Translations under genes and position numbers: made by a program | Source of the DNA: Chloroflexota bacterium | GTDB lineage: Bacteria > Chloroflexota > Dehalococcoidia > GIF9 > UBA5620 | NCBI GenBank assembly: GCA_026389735.1 | Contig: JAPLHH010000043.1 | Location: forward strand, 1-12,329 | DNA length: 12,329 nt | Direction of reading: 5' to 3' | Part shown: in pieces, positions 253 to 8,549 of the stretch | How the letters are laid out: each line of letters starts with the position of its first letter | Numbering within the stretch: the first letter of the stretch is position 1 | The notes under the pieces: model-generated | The model's input: the letters and a program-made list of their open reading frames with translations, nothing else | The model's database searches: none | What the model was told of the DNA's origin: nothing

Positions 253-710
253 GCACTCATATTATACCCAAAGAGGCTCCAGATTTGATTGATGCCCCCA
301 GGTCACAAGGAGATAATACCCTCCAAGAGCGCAGATAGATGCGCGAGTATTGATCAAAATGAAGATCCTGTTGTGTGAACTAATGGTGGGAGGAACTACT
401 CGATGTGGAAGTGCTTCTTGTATATACCAAAATCTGGTTGCGAAACGAAACACTCTTAAGCTGGAGCCAAAACTAATGCCTAAAATTCTTAGGTTAGATG
501 GCTCGAACAGAGCTCGGCTAACTCTTTGTAGTAGTCTAGCTTGCTATATTGCCTGGTGTCACGACAAAATTGTGGTACCCATTTTAATATATGTTCAGTC
601 ACAAACTGGTCCTTCAGCTTCAAGTAGCGCCACCTCCTCCTATGAAAGCATAGTGCAAATTATCGAAATCTAACAATCAGCATCCGATGCCGAGAAAGGA
701 GTTGGTAGAA
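253..710. other. Intergenic stretch without a convincing gene
   Basis: This 458-base gap lies between the hydantoinase-type gene and the dehalogenase-like gene. A 107-codon plus-strand frame (350-673) is open, but its product is low in recognisable pattern, has no good ribosome-binding site and matches no family I know, so I do not call it. The region probably holds the promoter of the downstream gene; I could not pick a clear -35/-10 pair. An AT-rich run TTTTAATATATG near 582-593 is the only candidate -10 neighbourhood. Confidence 0.5.
695..701 (+). promoter_or_regulatory. Ribosome-binding site that sets the start at 711
   Basis: AAAGGAG lies nine bases upstream of the ATG at 711. The in-frame ATG at 687 is upstream of this site and has no Shine-Dalgarno sequence of its own, so 711 is preferred; this shortens the protein by eight residues. 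Confidence 0.7.
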
Positions 711-1910
711 ATGAATAAGGAACCTAACCAATACGGTATACTGTTTGAAGACGGTCAGCTTGGTTCCTTTCCTATGCATCGATTAAAGCATGTCGACGAG
801 CCGACAACCCTTATCACTGATGATTGGCAGAGGGTTGACGCCCGAGAATCCGCGTATACCTATGCCAAGCGTGGCTATTATGGGTCGGTCGTGCAGAGGG
901 AGCTGCCACGTTTTGCGGCAAAATATCCATTGGCCGCAGCGCAACATGATATTCTGTTTCATATCTGCTGTTTCAAGGGTTGCCAAATTGCTGCCAATCA
1001 AGCACCGATTCCTGAGAACCCTAAGGTTTTGAGCCGACATATTAAACGCCTGGGTTACTTTCTCAAGGCCGATGTCATGGGCATTTGCGAACTGCCCAAA
1101 TCCGCCCTCTATAGCTACGATCTCTTGGGAAATCCCGTGGATCTTGATTATAAATACGCTATCGTAATCGTTGTGGCTAAAGAATACCAGACAATAAATG
1201 CTTCCACTGGCTATGATTGGATATGTGACCCAATAAGCTTTCAATCATATCAACGTGCAGGTTTGATAGCTCAAACCATAGCTGAATACATTAGAAAATT
1301 AGGCTATCCAGCCTTAGCACAGCATCCGCCAATAGAGGCGGGGCGATATCAAGTTGTCATCCCACCACTTCTTATCTGGGCTGGCATCGGAGAGCTCAGT
1401 CGAGCTGGAATTATCCTCAACCCCTTTCTAGGCCTGGGTTTCAAAGCATCTGCTGTCCTGACTGATCTTCCGTTATTACCGGACAAGCCGATTGACTTCG
1501 GACTTCAAGATTTCTGCCGAGACTGCAGGGTGTGTGCCCAGGAATGCCCCAGCAACGCGATCCCAATGGGAGACAAAGTTATTTATAATGGCTACGAAAC
1601 CTGGAAGCTCAATGAACGGCGCTGCGCCAGCTTCAGCATCACAAATAATAAGGGAACCATATGCAATAGGTGTGTGAAGGTTTGTCCGTGGACCAGACCT
1701 GCTACTTGGCCGCACAATTTGGTGCGCTGGGGAGTTCAACATTCCAGCATAGTCAGAAAATTCGCAATCATAACTGATCGTCTACTTGGCCATGCAAAAG
1801 CCAATAAAAAAACCAAATGGTGGTTTGATTTGGAGGATGTAGATGGGGTTCTGAAAATACCATCAAATAATGGTACTAAAGTTATTCGAGATAGTATAGA
1901 AATCCCTTGA
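711..1910 (+). CDS. rdhA: Reductive dehalogenase-like cobalamin/[4Fe-4S] protein, no Tat signal, orphan
   Basis: This 399-residue protein has the features of the catalytic core of reductive dehalogenases (RdhA). Residues 260-290 hold two four-cysteine motifs' first member, CxxCxxCxxxCP (Cys269, 272, 275, 279), and the second member follows as C-x12-C-x2-C-x3-CPW (Cys305, 318, 321, 325), for two [4Fe-4S] clusters. The cobalamin-domain stretch PPLLIWAGIGELSRAG, then VLTDLPLLPDKPIDFG, is characteristic of RdhA. It differs from QueG, which has a GWIGKH-type motif there. Known RdhA enzymes cleave carbon-halogen bonds using corrinoid. This one lacks the twin-arginine signal peptide of respiratory RdhAs, and no RdhB-type membrane anchor is encoded nearby, so a cytoplasmic, non-respiratory role is inferred. 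It is shorter than typical RdhAs (about 450-520 residues with signal). The reaction may not be dehalogenation. Fold is confident; substrate is unknown. Confidence 0.85.
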   Translation: MNKEPNQYGILFEDGQLGSFPMHRLKHVDEPTTLITDDWQRVDARESAYTYAKRGYYGSVVQRELPRFAAKYPLAAAQHDILFHICCFKGCQIAANQAPIPENPKVLSRHIKRLGYFLKADVMGICELPKSALYSYDLLGNPVDLDYKYAIVIVVAKEYQTINASTGYDWICDPISFQSYQRAGLIAQTIAEYIRKLGYPALAQHPPIEAGRYQVVIPPLLIWAGIGELSRAGIILNPFLGLGFKASAVLTDLPLLPDKPIDFGLQDFCRDCRVCAQECPSNAIPMGDKVIYNGYETWKLNERRCASFSITNNKGTICNRCVKVCPWTRPATWPHNLVRWGVQHSSIVRKFAIITDRLLGHAKANKKTKWWFDLEDVDGVLKIPSNNGTKVIRDSIEIP

Positions 1911-2399: not shown

Positions 2400-3443
2400 T
2401 CATGTCGAGGTCATCTCCATTGCTTGAGGCACAATACCAATTCCTCGTGCCACCCAGTTGTCATAATACATGAAACTGCATGGTGTCATAATGCCCAACA
2501 GATACTCAGCTACCCAGACTTTAAGCCTATCTACCACACCATAGCGTAAGTGCTGCGCCCTGACATCAGAATCGGCTAGGTTACAGTAGTGCCTAGTCAT
2601 GGTAAGCGAAGTGTGTCCTAGCTTTTTCTGCAGTGAGAATGGATCACCGCCATTTCTTAGATACATCACACTCGAAGTATGCCTCAGCTTATGAGCGTAG
2701 CATCTTTGGAGGCCAGCCTTCTTCCCGTATTCGGCTATGAGCTTCTCAACCCGCTCTGCGTTAAGGGCACGGCCGTCTGTGGTCAGGAAGAACCTATCTG
2801 TTCCTACTGGTTCTGGGCGATGCCTTAGCCTGTATTTGAGTAGGGCCTTCGCCACCTTCTGCCCAAAGGGGATATATCTCTCCTTGCTCCCCTTGCCCAT
2901 CGCCTTGAGATATCCCTGCTCAAGGTCTACATCGTCGATCCTTAAGTTAGCAATCTCCGAGAGCCGAGCACCAGTATCAACGAAGGTGAGCAACAGGGCA
3001 TAGTCCCTGAATCCCCTGTCGGTGTGCTTATCCGGCTGTGCTAGCAGTTTCTCTATCTCTTTCTCGGAGAAGGTGGGGACTACCTTCTTGTGTACCTTGG
3101 GCATCTTGATCTTCTCCATCGGGTTCTGCTCGATAAGCCCCTCGTGGTAGAGGTAGCCAAAGAATGCCCGTACTGCCCTGGCGTAGGTCTCTATGCTTTG
3201 GGGGCTTAGGTTCTCTTTCTGAGGTTTAGCGTAGGGGTGCTTCCTGTACCTGTGACTCTCTTGGAGGGCGATAATAAAGCGCCTCAAGTCATTGCCAGTA
3301 ATCAGTAGAATATCTTAGTCACTGCCCAGGAAGTCTGCGAAGTAGCCAACGCTTGAGCTAATCCACTCAATCGTTTTGGGGCTCTTTGCTTCGGCTCTGG
3401 CGCAGATACGATAAGCTGTCAGCGCATCAGATAGAGTAGTCAA
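2400..3443 (-). pseudogene. Tyrosine recombinase/integrase (XerC/D type) broken by an in-frame TAA
   Basis: Read as one frame, this encodes about 347 codons of a phage-type integrase. The start is TTG at 3443, six bases after AAGGAG. The N-terminal SAM-like core-binding domain (LSDALTAYRICARAEAKSPKTI...) runs through codon 42, then TAA (3315-3317) interrupts it at codon 43. The frame resumes with DILLITGNDLRRFIIAL and continues intact to the end. The catalytic domain has a full active site: Arg160 (TGARLSEI), Lys187 (GKGSKERY), His251 and Arg254 (HKLRH), His277 (LGHTS) and nucleophile Tyr286 (TRHYCNL). The C-terminus has an extra tail of about 35 residues beyond the usual VDRL end. Such enzymes cut and join att sites. 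It lies directly 3' of tRNA-Gly on the same strand, the classic integration layout. Without the stop it would be complete; no good internal restart is visible, so it is probably a recently dead gene (or a sequencing error). Confidence 0.85.
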
Positions 3444-3449
3444 CTCTGT

Positions 3450-3455
3450 CTCCTT
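3450..3455 (-). promoter_or_regulatory. Ribosome-binding site for the recombinase TTG start
   Basis: AAGGAG on the minus strand lies six bases before TTG 3443. It is the main reason for placing the start there: the full N-terminal DNA-binding domain is then included, although the frame is interrupted later. Confidence 0.6.
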
Positions 3456-3544
3456 ACGCTGACAGCTTACAGGCTCCACAAGGATATTTCTACGACTTTG
3501 TGCTACATTGCGTGCAGTGAAAGCAGTTGCTCTACTCAGCTTTG

Positions 3545-3619
3545 TGGAGCGGGAGACGGGATTCGAACCCGCAACAGCCTGCTTGGAAGGCAGGAACTCT
3601 ACCTCTGAGTTACTCCCGC
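3545..3619 (-). tRNA. tRNA-Gly(TCC)
   Basis: The reverse strand folds as a complete cloverleaf: acceptor GCGGGAG pairs with CTCCCGC, a D-arm with AACTCAGAGGTAGAG follows, and the anticodon stem CCTGC/GCAGG holds loop CTTCCAA with anticodon TCC, which reads glycine GGA/GGG. The T-arm is GCGGG-TTCGAAT-CCCGT (one G-T wobble). Discriminator T and an encoded CCA (3545-3547) finish it. The recombinase starts about 100 bases beyond its 3' end on the same strand, so this gene is a likely attachment site. Confidence 0.96.
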
Positions 3620-3939: not shown

Positions 3940-4782
3940 ATGCAACAAAGGTGTCCTAATTGCGGTTCGCCAATCGCTCCAGGGCAGCGATTCTGTGGAG
4001 GCTGTGGTGCTCAGATAAGCCTCGCTTGCCCTCAGTGTAGGATCACAGTGAGCCCCGGTACTAGATTTTGCCCGAACTGCGGTGCTACGTTAGGCGGAGG
4101 CGCGCCCCAACAGCCGGGATGGGGACAGCAGCCAGGTGGGATGCCACCACAACAACCAGGCTGGGGTCAGCAGCCAGGCGGGATGCCACAACAACCTGGG
4201 TGGGGTCCGCAGCCAGGCGGGATGCCGCCACAACAACCCGGCTGGGGACAGCAGCCAGCCTGGGCACCGCCGGCACCAAAGAGACAATCGTCGTCATCGA
4301 GACCGTTTCTGGTGATGCTGCTAATTGTCCTCTTGATCGGCCTTGGATTTCTTACTGTTAAGTACACACCACTTGACGAAACACTGCTGGGCTTCTTCAA
4401 ATCTTCCACTGGTGGCACTACTTCTACCGCAGATACCACAAAGCCAGTAATCTCAGATTTTAAGGCAATTGAAATTACCACAACAAAGGCCACTATCACT
4501 TGGACTACCGATGACCTGTCCAGCAGCCAGGTTGAGTATGGCAAGACTAAGGAACAAACTTCGCTCTCACCCGCCCAACCTGCAGATGACCCAACTGCAC
4601 TCGACGCGGAGGGTAAGCCTATCTCGGCAGGAGTCGTTACCCACTCCGTAACCTTGACTGGCCTTGAGCCAAACAACATCACTTACTATTACAGGGTTAA
4701 GTCAAAAGACGCAGCCGGGAACGAGGCGGTGTCCCCAGCGTCAGAGTGGAAAAGCTTCACCACGACAGTTCCCGAGGAATAA
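3940..4782 (+). CDS. Double zinc-ribbon, PQQPGWG-repeat, single-TM protein with FN3 domain
   Basis: The 280-residue product has four parts. Residues 5-47 hold two zinc ribbons (Cys5/8/19/22 and Cys30/33/44/47). Residues 57-106 hold a low-complexity tandem repeat of QQPGWGQQPGGMP(P). Residues 122-140 are a hydrophobic membrane helix preceded by a Lys/Arg/Ser-rich stretch. Residues 168-276 form a fibronectin type III domain (ATITWTTDD, SSQVEYGKT, HSVTLTGLEPN, YRVKSKDAAGNEA). By the positive-inside rule the zinc ribbons and the repeat should be cytoplasmic and the FN3 domain outside, so the protein would link the two sides of the membrane. No signal peptide is present. Zinc-ribbon/TM architectures are common in uncharacterised bacterial membrane proteins. 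The FN3 domain is closely related to that in the lipoprotein at 7584-8549. No enzymatic motif is seen; the function is unknown. Confidence 0.85.
   Translation: MQQRCPNCGSPIAPGQRFCGGCGAQISLACPQCRITVSPGTRFCPNCGATLGGGAPQQPGWGQQPGGMPPQQPGWGQQPGGMPQQPGWGPQPGGMPPQQPGWGQQPAWAPPAPKRQSSSSRPFLVMLLIVLLIGLGFLTVKYTPLDETLLGFFKSSTGGTTSTADTTKPVISDFKAIEITTTKATITWTTDDLSSSQVEYGKTKEQTSLSPAQPADDPTALDAEGKPISAGVVTHSVTLTGLEPNNITYYYRVKSKDAAGNEAVSPASEWKSFTTTVPEE
4108..4257 (+). repeat. In-frame tandem repeat encoding QQPGWGQQPGGMPP units
   Basis: Three near-identical units of 42, 39 and 42 bases plus a partial fourth encode 14-, 13- and 14-residue copies (residues 57-70, 71-83, 84-97, 98-106). Lengths are multiples of three, so gain or loss of units keeps the frame. 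Wobble differences between units suggest they are not a fresh slippage product. Confidence 0.85.
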
Positions 4783-4869: not shown

Positions 4870-4925
4870 CAATGCAGGCGGGCTGTATAGCCCGGAGAGC
4901 AAGAGAGTGTTTAATCATTCGTCGC

Positions 4926-4993
4926 TGTCATTGCGAGCCGAAGGCGAAGCAATCTCATGGGATTGCCACGTCGCTACGCTCCTCGCAATGACA
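4926..4993. mobile_element. MITE-like element, copy A (68 bp)
   Basis: Perfect 12-bp terminal inverted repeats TGTCATTGCGAG (4926-4937) and CTCGCAATGACA (4982-4993) bound a largely self-complementary interior with GCAATCTC and GATTGCCACG blocks. It has no coding capacity. Related copies lie at 5954-6034 and 7331-7413. It sits between the promoter candidate and the start of the gene at 5026, so its hairpin would be in that mRNA leader. Confidence 0.8.
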
Positions 4994-5015
4994 ATAAACA
5001 CACCCGGTAAAAGGC

Positions 5016-5020
5016 GGAGG
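5016..5020 (+). promoter_or_regulatory. Strong Shine-Dalgarno sequence for the gene at 5026
   Basis: GGAGG is followed by TGACG and then ATG at 5026, an ideal five-base spacing. It is the best ribosome-binding site in this part of the window and supports real translation of the interrupted gene behind it. Confidence 0.75.
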
Positions 5021-5025
5021 TGACG

Positions 5026-5352
5026 ATGAAATATATATGTCAGCTAGCCATCACTGCTATTTTACTTTCATCCGGGGCTTGTGCTCAGATGAATAATGCG
5101 CCTCGCCATACGGCCGACGAGGTAATAATGATAGCCAAGAGCTTCAGTCCTCAGTGCCAGGTGCAAGTAGCTTCCGAGCCCTGCGGCTGAGGAGGCCCCG
5201 CTGCTCCTCAGTATGAGGAGGCTGCCCCAATTCTCACTGCTGAGTATTCAGGGGACGGAATATGGAGTATAACCAAGACCTGCCCGATAAACTCAGAATA
5301 TAACCGTGCCTGGTATTTCCATGATGATACCGATGAATTAGTATGGAAGTGA
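5026..5352 (+). CDS. Small exported protein with internal in-frame TGA (candidate Sec codon or nonsense mutation)
   Basis: From ATG 5026 the frame encodes a signal peptide (MKYICQLAITAILLSSGACA; lipobox-like SGAC with Cys19, or AxA cleavage before Gln21), then TADEVIMIAKSFSPQCQVQV and SEPCG. TGA follows at 5188-5190 (codon 55). The same frame stays open for 53 more codons and looks like protein: TAEYSGDGIWSITKTCP, then AWYFHDDTDELV, to a TGA at 5350-5352. Total length read through is 108 residues. The stretch after the stop has a Y-G-G-W...W-F-(D/E) pattern I associate with small secreted domains, and the first part looks like its N-terminal helix, so both belong to one domain. A stable hairpin lies directly after the TGA. 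Explanations: recent nonsense mutation, sequencing error, or selenocysteine insertion (giving C-G-U). The next gene starts 39 bases later. Function unknown. Confidence 0.6.
5188..5220 (+). promoter_or_regulatory. SECIS-like hairpin/alternative stems directly after the internal TGA
   Basis: TGAGGAG (5188-5194, including the stop codon), CTCCTCA (5204-5210) and TGAGGAG (5214-5220) can pair two ways. CTCCTCA with the second TGAGGAG gives a perfect 7-bp stem with a GTA loop whose first base is 20 nucleotides after the TGA. CTCCTCA with the first TGAGGAG gives a 7-bp stem that buries the TGA. The first form meets the broad bacterial SECIS rules as I recall them (short loop with an early G, stem of 4-16 bp, loop about 16-37 bases after UGA). 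Such hairpins also occur by chance. Confidence 0.35.
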
Positions 5353-5391: not shown

Positions 5392-5715
5392 GTGAGTGAC
5401 ATTCTGGATGAAGCCCAGGCATTGGTTCAATGCAAAGCTTGCCCCTGGTATAAGAGCTGCGTCTTGCCCATGCGGCTGACGGAGGATGACTTAAGAAAAC
5501 AGCTGGAGTCTTCCATACCCGGAGCTACCACTCCGGGAGCAGCGCAATACGGCATGCAACAACTATTATCCGGCCTGGCAGCCGCTGCCGAAAACTCCAT
5601 CCTCGAAGGTTGTCCGGTATTCATCAACAGGCTTCGCTCTAACCCCAAGCTCGCCGAGCAAATAAAGAAACTGATGCAGGAATGGACAAGAGAAAGCGAA
5701 GGGCAAACTTCGTAG
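5392..5715 (+). CDS. Hypothetical 107-residue protein with CxxC-x5-C and CP motifs
   Basis: The start is GTG at 5392, with GAGG a few bases upstream. The protein has four cysteines: Cys14-x2-Cys17-x5-Cys23 in QCKACPWYKSCVLPM, and Cys74 in LEGCPVF. The middle is Gly/Ala-rich (GATTPGAAQYG) and the C-terminus is a charged helix (PKLAEQIKKLMQEWTRE). There is no signal peptide or membrane segment, so it should be cytoplasmic. Four cysteines in this spacing could hold a zinc ion or an iron-sulfur cluster; this is an inference from pattern, and I do not recognise the family. It follows the interrupted exported-protein gene on the same strand with a 39-base gap, so the two are probably co-transcribed from the promoter near 4850. 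Confidence 0.7.
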   Translation: MSDILDEAQALVQCKACPWYKSCVLPMRLTEDDLRKQLESSIPGATTPGAAQYGMQQLLSGLAAAAENSILEGCPVFINRLRSNPKLAEQIKKLMQEWTRESEGQTS

Positions 5716-5803: not shown

Positions 5804-5878
5804 CCCTAACATAAGAAACCCTAAGTACCAAATATCAAACAATGTCAAAATTTAAATTCTCCAAATTGAAGTGTTCGT

Positions 5879-5910
5879 CATCATTGCGAGGAGCAGGATT
5901 CCTCGCTTAC
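5879..5910. mobile_element. Degenerate MITE-like fragment
   Basis: TCATCATTGCGAGGAGCAGG and the following TTCCTCGC resemble one end and the inner arm of the neighbouring elements. A second clean terminal repeat is missing; a block GCAATCTCGGTGGGG at about 5928-5942 resembles their interior. It is best read as a broken copy. Confidence 0.5.
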
Positions 5911-5953
5911 ACTTGGAACAAGCTCCGCAATCTCGGTGGGGCTATCCCCATAC

Positions 5954-6034
5954 TGTCATCGCGAGGTACGGAGTGCCGTGGCGATCCCGGTGGGGAATGG
6001 GCAGGGAGATTGCCACGCTTCGCTCGCAATGACA
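5954..6034. mobile_element. MITE-like element, copy B (81 bp)
   Basis: Ends TGTCATCGCGAG (5954-5965) and CTCGCAATGACA (6023-6034) are inverted repeats with one mismatch. The 39-base interior block 5978-6016 is, in reverse complement, 37/39 identical by hand count to block 7351-7389 of copy C, so the two copies are related and inserted in opposite orientations. Confidence 0.8.
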
Positions 6035-6146
6035 TAAAGGCAAATGTTTTGGTCATTGATATTTTGAGCTTTGAATCTGTTTGGTGCTTGGGATTTCGAA
6101 CTTGCGATTTTTATAATAACGCTGCGCTGCTTTAGCCTCGCGTAAA

Positions 6147-6515: not shown

Positions 6516-7250
6516 ATGAAGATGCGACTGAAATGGTATGCCATTATAGCTGTAGCCCTGGTTCTTCTGTCAGTTATGGCTTGCAGTCAGCGAGAGCGTC
6601 AGCCGGAGCAACAATTCCTTGACCTCTGTGACAAGATGAAGAAATACATTGAGCAAGCACAGGCTATGGCTTCAGACCTCGAGGATTTCAACTGGAATGA
6701 ATTTTCCAATATCGGGATACTATGTCCGCCAAAGGGAATATGTCCGGTGGGAAGCCTGCCCATAGTTGAGAAAAGCTCAGTTGTTGAAGAGTTTATGGAA
6801 CGCTGGGTTTCTCTAGCTGAACGATTGCCATTCCCGCAAACAGCCAAGACCTACTCTGTACAATGTGCTAGCTGTTTGAAGCTCGCCAGCGAGGTCTGTT
6901 CACGCAGCCCTTATAATGAATCACAAACGCGTACGCCGGAGGCTGAAAAACTTACACTAACTCAGTGGCAAGAGCTGTGTAGCCAACTGCAATCAGCCTT
7001 ACAAGGAGCTGAGTATCTGGCCTCGAGGGATAAGACTATTGCCTTAGATTATACATTCCCTCAACTATTGGTGTATCTCGATTCTTCGGATGAAGGGATA
7101 AAACAGAAATACCTTGATAAGTTTATGGCTAAATCCGATAAGTATATTCAATTACACGCCGGACTGATACACAATATACAGCAGGCCGAACAAGTGGCAT
7201 CCGAGCTAGCCAACTGGCAATTCAGCTCGCAAGGCCTTGGAGACCAGTAA
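6516..7250 (+). CDS. Putative lipoprotein, helical, Cys-containing, unknown function
   Basis: The 244-residue product starts with a lipoprotein signal peptide: basic MKMRLK, a hydrophobic core (WYAIIAVALVLLS) and lipobox VMAC with Cys23. It should be anchored on the outer face of the cytoplasmic membrane. The mature part is mostly predicted helix (DLCDKMKKYIEQAQAMASDLEDF; SKDKT-like charged stretches; a C-terminal HAGLIHNIQQAEQVASELANW). It carries several cysteines, including CPPKGICPVGS and CASCLKLASEVCS, that could form disulfides. No catalytic motif or known domain is recognised. It is flanked by repeats on both sides and appears to be a single-gene unit with its own promoter. The same TGTATAATC promoter word precedes the second lipoprotein at 7584. 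Confidence 0.75.
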   Translation: MKMRLKWYAIIAVALVLLSVMACSQRERQPEQQFLDLCDKMKKYIEQAQAMASDLEDFNWNEFSNIGILCPPKGICPVGSLPIVEKSSVVEEFMERWVSLAERLPFPQTAKTYSVQCASCLKLASEVCSRSPYNESQTRTPEAEKLTLTQWQELCSQLQSALQGAEYLASRDKTIALDYTFPQLLVYLDSSDEGIKQKYLDKFMAKSDKYIQLHAGLIHNIQQAEQVASELANWQFSSQGLGDQ

Positions 7251-7292: not shown

Positions 7293-7311
7293 TTACACTT
7301 TTATAGTGTAA
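7293..7311. repeat. Inverted repeat TTACACT/AGTGTAA
   Basis: TTACACT (7293-7299), five-base spacer TTTAT, AGTGTAA (7305-7311). The form is that of a dimeric-regulator operator or a weak hairpin. It lies 40 bases after the lipoprotein stop and 20 bases before MITE copy C; no promoter is next to it, so its role is unclear. Confidence 0.4.
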
Positions 7312-7330
7312 CATTGGGTAATGTCCCCGG

Positions 7331-7413
7331 TGTCATTGCGAGCCGAAGGCGTGGCAATCTCCCTGCCCATTCCCCACCGAGACCGCCACGTCGCTCACGC
7401 TCCTCGCGATGAC
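7331..7413. mobile_element. MITE-like element, copy C (83 bp)
   Basis: Ends TGTCATTGCGAG (7331-7342) and CTCGCGATGAC (7403-7413) are imperfect terminal inverted repeats. The interior 7351-7389 is the inverted counterpart of the interior of copy B (37/39 by hand count). Confidence 0.8.
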
Positions 7414-7524
7414 GGAAAGAAGAACAGGGATAGCAAGCCCTGTTCCGAGCGCCAACGAGGAATCTCGCTCTTATCAATAACAACAACAGCAAGTGTCACT
7501 AATGTACTGGACGAGTGCACGGCA

Positions 7525-7553
7525 TTCTATTTTGCCTTGGTTGGGTGTATAAT
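7525..7553 (+). promoter_or_regulatory. Promoter of the FN3 lipoprotein gene
   Basis: TTCTAT (7525-7530), 17 bases, TATAAT (7548-7553) inside TTGGGTGTATAATCA. It lies about 30 bases before ATG 7584, which argues against using any start upstream of 7584. Confidence 0.55.
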
Positions 7554-7583
7554 CAAACAAATTGGAGTTTGCAGGCGGCAAGT

Positions 7584-8549
7584 ATGAAAACTAAGCCCAG
7601 ATGGTATATCGTTTTACTCACTGGCCTGGCTCTCCTATCGCTTTGCTCATTCATTTCCTGCCGGCCGGAACCGCCAGCTATTATTCTTTTCAGTGCCACT
7701 CCGTCAGAAATCAATCTCGGCCAGTCAACAAACTTAAAATGGGACATCAAAGATGCTACCAGCATAACTATAGACCAGGGCATAGGGGAAGTTGCTGCTG
7801 CCGGGTCAACGGAGCTGTCACCAGCTAAAACCATCGCCTACACTTTAACTGCCACCAATGCCGGCGGTACTGTCAGCAAGTCCGTGGTCATTTATGTCAA
7901 CCCTCCACCACCGCCACCCCCCGACACTACGCCGCCGGTAATCAAAAATGTCTCGACCTCGTTTGAAAGTGAGACGGTAGCTGTCATTACCTGGTCGACA
8001 AATGAGCCAGGCAGCAGCCAGGTTGAGTACGGCAAGACCACAGAATACGGTTTAACTGCCACTTCGGACGAGCTGACCACTGCCCACAGCATCACTTTAA
8101 GCGGGCTCGAGCCCAATACTGAATATCACTATCGGGTAAAGTCGAAGGACAAGGCTGGCAACGAAGCCTCGTCAGCGGACAATACTTTCTTCACACTCCA
8201 GGAAAAATCGCCGTATTCAATGGAGCTGCAATCCCTCGAATGGGGAAGAAGAACTGAAAGCACGAGCTTTGGCTCAGGCATGAAACCAGTAGAGGGAAAG
8301 AAGTATCTGTTTATCAAAGGCACATTACAAAATAAGAGCCATGCAACCTTGCGAGCTGTGATATGTACCATGAACTGCTGGAACGGCAATACTCTTGTGA
8401 AATACGAAGTATATGTGTATCATGGCCCTGCCTTGCCCGGGCAGGTCTTTAACTTCGATATTCAAACTGCCGATGACCCAACGGTTAACAATGTGACCGT
8501 AGATTTTGCCGATTCTCTAGGGAAGGAAATCGAGGTTATTAAAAAATAG
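7584..8549 (+). CDS. Lipoprotein with Ig-like, FN3 and C-terminal beta domain
   Basis: The start is ATG 7584 rather than the upstream in-frame ATG 7515, because 7515 precedes the promoter and 7584 begins a clear signal peptide (MKTKPRWYIVLLTGLALLSL, Cys26 in FISC). The 321-residue product then has an Ig-like domain (about 27-106: GQSTNLKWDIKDATSITID, then YTLTATNAGGTVS), a proline linker (NPPPPPPPDTTPP), and an FN3 domain (about 117-210: AVITWSTNEPGSSQVEYGKT, HSITLSGLEPN, YRVKSKDKAGNEA). A C-terminal beta-rich part (about 214-321) contains KKYLFIKGTLQNKS, which resembles FxLyD/DUF4352-type domains. It is probably a surface-displayed binding or adhesion protein. The FN3 domain is very close to that of the zinc-ribbon protein at 3940, even at the DNA level. 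No catalytic residues are seen. Confidence 0.8.
   Translation: MKTKPRWYIVLLTGLALLSLCSFISCRPEPPAIILFSATPSEINLGQSTNLKWDIKDATSITIDQGIGEVAAAGSTELSPAKTIAYTLTATNAGGTVSKSVVIYVNPPPPPPPDTTPPVIKNVSTSFESETVAVITWSTNEPGSSQVEYGKTTEYGLTATSDELTTAHSITLSGLEPNTEYHYRVKSKDKAGNEASSADNTFFTLQEKSPYSMELQSLEWGRRTESTSFGSGMKPVEGKKYLFIKGTLQNKSHATLRAVICTMNCWNGNTLVKYEVYVYHGPALPGQVFNFDIQTADDPTVNNVTVDFADSLGKEIEVIKK

Follow-up and report, generated by a model that had tools for sequence, protein, structure and literature searches.

Bacterial selenoproteins, as described in the available passages of a 2026 review, are characterized by an in-frame UGA that is followed, at a spacing of 16-37 nt, by a hairpin, the loop of which starts with G and then U or G (PMC13188914). 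The bSECIS model given in this review sets a loop of 3-9 nt, a stem of 4-16 bp, a distance of 16-37 nt from the UGA, and an energy of -7.5 kcal/mol or lower, with a G within the first two loop positions that is mostly followed by G or U (PMC13188914). According to the accessible parts of two sources, such proteins have been found either by SECIS searches or by pairing cysteine homologues with TGA (PMC13188914, PMC12013277). Regarding the Chloroflexi, the available passages of two papers mention selenocysteine (Sec) in formate dehydrogenases, one of them extending this to other dehydrogenases (PMC5736913, PMC4959059).

In the present study, we analyzed a 12,329-nt stretch of DNA, referred to here as the window (contig JAPLHH010000043.1, assembly GCA_026389735.1), from a Chloroflexota bacterium (Dehalococcoidia; GIF9; UBA5620). 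The gene at 5026-5352 is predicted to encode a selenoprotein, a reading to which we assign a probability of approximately 0.94. It resembles the bacterial selenoproteins covered by the available review passages in its in-frame UGA, downstream hairpin, spacing, and loop start, as well as in the presence of SelA, SelB, SelD, and tRNA-Sec in related genomes (PMC13188914). Unlike them, it belongs to a family with no meaningful NCBIfam or Pfam match and no cysteine counterpart found, and its Sec would stand as G-U with distant cysteines rather than in CxxU or UxxC. Selenocysteine had been proposed for this gene in the initial annotation, and it is strongly supported by the conserved TGA, the hairpin, and the sel genes in related genomes that are described below.

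Layout of the gene and its predicted product

The features of the locus are listed in Table 1. The product of the gene reads as a short lipoprotein-like protein, and the signal peptide, the TGA at codon 55 with the 53 open codons behind it, and the perfect 7-bp stem with its GTA loop, all of which had been pointed out in the initial annotation, were each found in place. The signal peptide ends at Cys19 in the manner of a lipoprotein; this cysteine is invariant in a 13-row set and missing from one relative (L024). Judging from this signal, the product is predicted to be lipid- or transmembrane (TM)-anchored on the outer side of the membrane. Two earlier descriptions held in part. The term small secreted selenoprotein was apt for the selenoprotein, but not for its setting, which is not one secreted protein but a family of varied architecture, the members of which are lipoproteins or anchored in the membrane. 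The residue series C-G-U occurs in the window and in some members, whereas near-invariance across the family (at least 90%) is limited to the G that precedes the TGA.

Table 1. Features of the candidate selenoprotein locus and its neighborhood (window coordinates).
Feature	Position	Strand	Remarks
Conserved upstream neighbor	3940..4782	+	Zinc ribbons, TM segment, and fn3-like domain; Pfam
Shine-Dalgarno GGAGG	5016..5020	+	5 nt ahead of ATG 5026; sequence reading
Predicted selenoprotein gene	5026..5352	+	108 codons; TGA as codon 55; terminator TGA 5350-5352; same TGA read through in homologues
Signal peptide	5026..5082	+	Ends at predicted lipidated Cys19 (codon 5080-5082); sequence reading
Cys44	5155..5157	+	Invariant in 24-row alignment
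TGA codon 55, predicted to be read as selenocysteine	5188..5190	+	One TGA in 24/24 homologous domains
bSECIS hairpin	5204..5220	+	7-bp stem 5204-5210/5214-5220; loop GTA 5211-5213; loop 20 nt after TGA
Cys86	5281..5283	+	Invariant in 24-row alignment
Conserved downstream neighbor	5392..5715	+	107 aa; CKACPWYKSC motif
Helical lipoprotein gene	6516..7250	+	Related to C-terminal extension of fused Sec protein in L040

Conservation of the TGA across the family

A scan of named bacterial genomes yielded the first two relatives, L001 (Chloroflexi MAG, VGNX01000010) and L002 (Dehalococcoidia MAG, JADHXB010000004), which matched residues 1-108 with 81% identity in the best segment and each contained one inner in-frame TGA, though the adjacent codons shift by one. 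A profile built from these two and the window sequence was then searched in 84 genomes of the order to which L001 belongs, and 24 homologous domains were obtained in 15 of them, each with exactly one stop, a TGA. This profile contained cysteine in the column of the TGA, and a homologue with cysteine there would therefore have suffered no loss of score. When a 24-row profile was searched in 22 genomes, 25 of 25 matches showed one TGA, one of these matches being partial at a contig end. In a class sample of 393 genomes, 10 had matches, 9 of which were already known from the order; the matches comprised 15 with TGA and one distant half-domain without it. In a phylum sample of 400 genomes, G001 was the sole match, and the family looks restricted to this one order within the genomes sampled. 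The distant half-domain (L071, genome G391) is a lone relative of the C-terminal half that lacks both the TGA and the KTC cysteine, and is possibly a sign of a wider domain family.

In window numbering, the invariant positions of the 24-row alignment are Ala37, Cys44, the TGA column, Tyr74, Trp80, Lys84, Cys86, Trp96, and Phe98; in L042, the most distant row, a neighboring cysteine was aligned with the TGA column, and the TGA of this member lies two residues earlier. Among eight close members, the median dN/dS was 0.25 downstream of the TGA (47 codons) vs 0.20 upstream (19 codons), with 22 of 28 pairs estimable on each side, which indicates purifying selection on the part after the TGA. Between the window and its two nearest relatives, the downstream dN/dS was 0.53 and 0.34 and the downstream dS was low (0.108 and 0.161); an additional constraint imposed by the hairpin may have contributed to this. 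The frame behind the TGA had been described as protein-like, which agrees with the conservation of both sides as one domain and with the constraint on the downstream side.

A plain explanation would be an ordinary stop codon or a nonsense mutation at this TGA, with the downstream half left behind as a relic. The window by itself does show a stop, and the database proteins that were found end there. Position 55 was regarded from the beginning as the site at which homologues would be informative, and the 24 domains from 15 genomes carry neither cysteine nor any other residue there, but TGA in each case, followed by a half that is open and constrained; by contrast, an integrase in the same window is broken by a TAA. 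Because the TGA is kept in all homologues, the nonsense mutation, which had been raised as the alternative, is refuted, and we consider the relic to be practically out of the question. Since both sides form one conserved domain and all homologues retain the TGA between them, the ribosome must pass it.

The hairpin downstream of the TGA

The hairpin of the window, with its GTA loop at +20, 7-bp stem, and energy of -8.5 kcal/mol, fits the bSECIS geometry. When the 61-nt region of the window alone was compared with dinucleotide shuffles, the z-score was -1.0 and 32 of 200 shuffles folded at least as well, and the hairpin is convincing because of its relatives (loop G, covariation, and energy) and not because of the fold of the window alone. 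We set the register such that a loop of three bases begins +17 or +20 nt behind the TGA; in this register, G is first in 24 of 24 distinct members, with T as the next base in 18 members and G in the other 6. In terms of the loop as it forms, the G is the first base in 18 of the 24, while in the other 6 it is the second base of a five-base loop because the innermost pair does not form there.

Across 17 distinct rows, 89% of the cells pair in the hairpin stem, and the covariation score was 0.463 vs 0.226 in shuffled alignments, a value reached in 0 of 500; slid versions of the stem register scored 0.15-0.21. Two-sided changes were present in 6 of 7 stem pairs (mean of the shuffles 3.2; as many in 1 of 500), and further pair types in the 17 rows were not above the shuffles (12 vs 10.9; 166 of 500). 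The alignment leans towards the hairpin because the register was chosen on it. A null that preserves the protein was obtained by reshuffling the codons after the TGA synonymously, and in 19 of 24 members, the stem exceeded the strength expected from the protein sequence alone (p<0.05). An energy of -7.5 kcal/mol with an uninterrupted stem was reached by 15 of 24 members vs 0.57 expected under this null, and missed by the remaining 9 with the same stem requirement. Five of the 24 (L024, L028, L030, L032, and L039) did not reach p<0.05 under synonymous reshuffling, and the hairpins of L032 and L039 were weaker than the null mean. The description of the hairpin as SECIS-like was thus borne out by its fit to the bSECIS geometry, the loop G in every member, and a covariation that the shuffles did not reach.

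UGA recoding is selenium dependent. The TGA may be viewed as a read-through switch for which the inserted residue is irrelevant and which yields a short as well as a long product; this dependence on selenium and the upstream half, which is a complete small lipoprotein, are in favor of such a role. However, the invariant Cys44 and Cys86 flank the TGA, the hairpin conforms to the bSECIS geometry, and the Sec machinery occurs in related genomes, and we regard a switch that is indifferent to its residue as very unlikely. A read-through switch and selenocysteine are compatible and not mutually exclusive. In the case of selenocysteine, and by analogy with known bacterial Sec insertion, SelB with Sec-tRNA-Sec would bind the hairpin and insert selenocysteine at codon 55, and translation without selenium would stop after a fragment of 54 residues.

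Selenocysteine machinery in related genomes

The sel genes were searched for in the 84 genomes of the order, which are relatives of the organism of the window, and tRNA-Sec was called by ARAGORN on the loci of the best Rfam matches. tRNA-Sec was present in at least 14 of the 84 genomes, selB in 15 and selA in 16 above the cut-off, with partial selA genes in two more, and selD above the cut-off in 14, where 15 of 15 matches had one TGA; among the matches listed, no stop was found in selA or selB. The TGA-coded SelD of these genomes is likewise a Sec protein, but an unrelated enzyme, namely, selenophosphate synthetase. When genomes with any of tRNA-Sec, selA, selB, or selD were counted as Sec-positive, these made up 12 of the 15 family-bearing genomes vs 7 of the 69 others (Fisher p=1.5e-7). 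The sel genes proposed as a check (selA, selB, and tRNA-Sec, together with a TGA-coded selD) were found in relatives carrying this gene. No sel gene was found in three of the family-bearing genomes (G002, G066, and G078), a weak absence because these are listed at 0.9-1.5 Mb and may be incomplete. G058 is Sec-positive on tRNA-Sec alone, and its locus is interrupted by two gaps of 100 N each, with a zinc-ribbon paralogue truncated at one of them; in G067 and G083, selA and a TGA-coded selD are present, and tRNA-Sec and selB were not found. Two selA and two selB matches lie on separate contigs in G077, and G084 has two tRNA-Sec and a full selB plus the end of a divergent selB; these two genomes may have two sel systems or be mixed bins.

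tRNA-Cys of the tRNA-Sec-like selC* type has been described for some anaerobes, in some cases with a UCA anticodon, in a paper whose available passages name other phyla and do not contain the word Chloroflexi (PMC7609411). Reading of the UGA as cysteine by such a tRNA needs to be considered since G067, in which tRNA-Sec was not found, has a long-armed tRNA with a GCA anticodon and a T before CCA. This 95-nt tRNA (L059:671-765, minus strand) has a tRNA-Sec-like score and resembles selC* tRNA-Cys. However, its anticodon is GCA and not UCA, while the tRNA-Sec of ten family-bearing genomes has the anticodon TCA (UCA in the RNA) and ends in GCCA, with G and not T/U73 before CCA. Nine of these ten genomes also have selA (two of them partial) and five a TGA-coded selD, and a cysteine codon would serve a cysteine-reading system equally well, yet is used in 0 of 24 members. 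Considering these points, we judge cysteine at this codon to be extremely improbable and selenocysteine to be by far the more probable residue.

Search for a cysteine form and probable novelty of the family

Cysteine-containing homologues are the usual supporting evidence for selenoproteins and are not a requirement. For the present family, no cysteine homologue was found in a database of 5.8 billion proteins or in the order, class, and phylum genome samples (84, 393, and 400 genomes, respectively). The database returned 6, 10, and 10 matches per search, each of which was half a protein: the 21 distinct N-terminal halves (the window's own excluded) all stop at the residue that should precede the TGA, and P0010 is a C-terminal half. 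From these ends, the database proteins appear to have been cut at the TGA, and some of them probably represent genes already included among the loci found here.

Among the 24 members scanned, NCBIfam 20.0 gave one match only (E 0.3, in 1 member) and the best Pfam-A match was DUF1163 (E 0.0051, in 2 members). Nothing was recognized as this domain in the table of 119 families and subfamilies in the available part of the 2026 review, the accessible text of which does not contain the words Chloroflex or Dehalococc (PMC13188914). No publication on this domain was recognized from titles and abstract openings, in a search that left subscription literature mostly outside. The protein family appears to be new, and its insertion mechanism is of a known kind. 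A family without cysteine relatives would escape the method that pairs cysteine with TGA.

Architectures and neighboring genes

By our reading of the sequences, the family comprises window-type short lipoproteins, proteins with zinc ribbons and a TM segment, short TM proteins, and members that are extended at the C-terminus by a helical part. Homologues of the upstream neighbor (3940-4782) precede the Sec gene in 7 of the 8 other window-type loci, two of them by partial matches, and homologues of the downstream neighbor (5392-5715) follow it in 7 of 8, the exception being L024 in both cases. The product of the downstream neighbor had no NCBIfam or PDB match and one sub-threshold Pfam match. 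In L040, the Sec protein is fused to such an extension, which shows 25.6% identity over 133 residues to the product of 6516-7250 (E 2.6e-5, tblastn), and this match to a separate gene suggests that the two work together. The Sec protein probably works with neighboring envelope proteins, one of which is fused to it in a relative.

The paralogue with zinc ribbons and a TM segment lies between tRNA-Sec and selB in G001, G057, G081, and G084, downstream of tRNA-Sec and in tail-to-tail orientation to selB, which in G084 is truncated at the contig end. In G072 and G068, tRNA-Sec and selB are separated by 24 nt and no gene intervenes. This position next to selB suggests that the second version is tied to the selenium machinery. 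Its N-terminal half is of the kind seen in zinc-ribbon and TM membrane proteins (PF12773/PF13240 type); its outer domain carries the Sec, and the database versions that were found stop before this domain.

Several other features of the window were recorded. The genes at 3940-4782 and 7515-8549 share the fn3-like domain (48.8% identity over 84 residues). In a tyrosine recombinase gene at 2400-3479 (minus strand), codon 55 of the frame as read is a TAA; the gene adjoins tRNA-Gly at 3545-3619, and this region looks like a decaying integrated element. The gene at 687-1910 (plus strand) scores above the NCBIfam cut-off for reductive dehalogenases (TIGR02486, 178.1 vs 160.35 bits). Similar-looking interspersed intergenic stretches (attgcgag... 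/ ...caatgac) were seen by eye at approximately 4925-5000, 5875-6035, and 7300-7420.

Predicted fold and possible function

A structure model based on 13 sequences (mean pLDDT 71, pTM 0.53) showed the signal helix followed by a single helix and six strands. Sec55 is located in the loop that connects the first strand to the second (pLDDT of this stretch about 58), whereas a strand begins at Cys44 and Cys86 directly follows the end of one. The best VIA score against solved structures was 5.8, for YebF (rmsd 6.3, 69 aligned), and the N-terminal domains of DsbC and DsbG scored lower. YebF and the DsbC/DsbG N-terminal domains share a cystatin-like fold.

By analogy with selenoproteins in general, the most likely role, with about an even chance, is that Sec55 is the reactive selenol of an extracytoplasmic thiol/disulfide or peroxide redox module, in which it would form a selenenylsulfide with Cys44 or Cys86. 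A far more tentative and, in our opinion, unlikely proposal is that the domain family has never existed in any form but with Sec, and that its zinc-ribbon/TM version in the sel locus relays an outside selenol redox or selenium signal to the cytoplasmic zinc ribbons and acts as a sensor of selenium or redox status.

If the present reading is true, selenoprotein families without a cysteine form exist and may be found by TGA conservation alone. Uncultured relatives of the Dehalococcoidia would then have a selenoprotein in the envelope and a paralogue of it within the sel locus, and the question of why an anaerobe places selenium on its surface would become testable.
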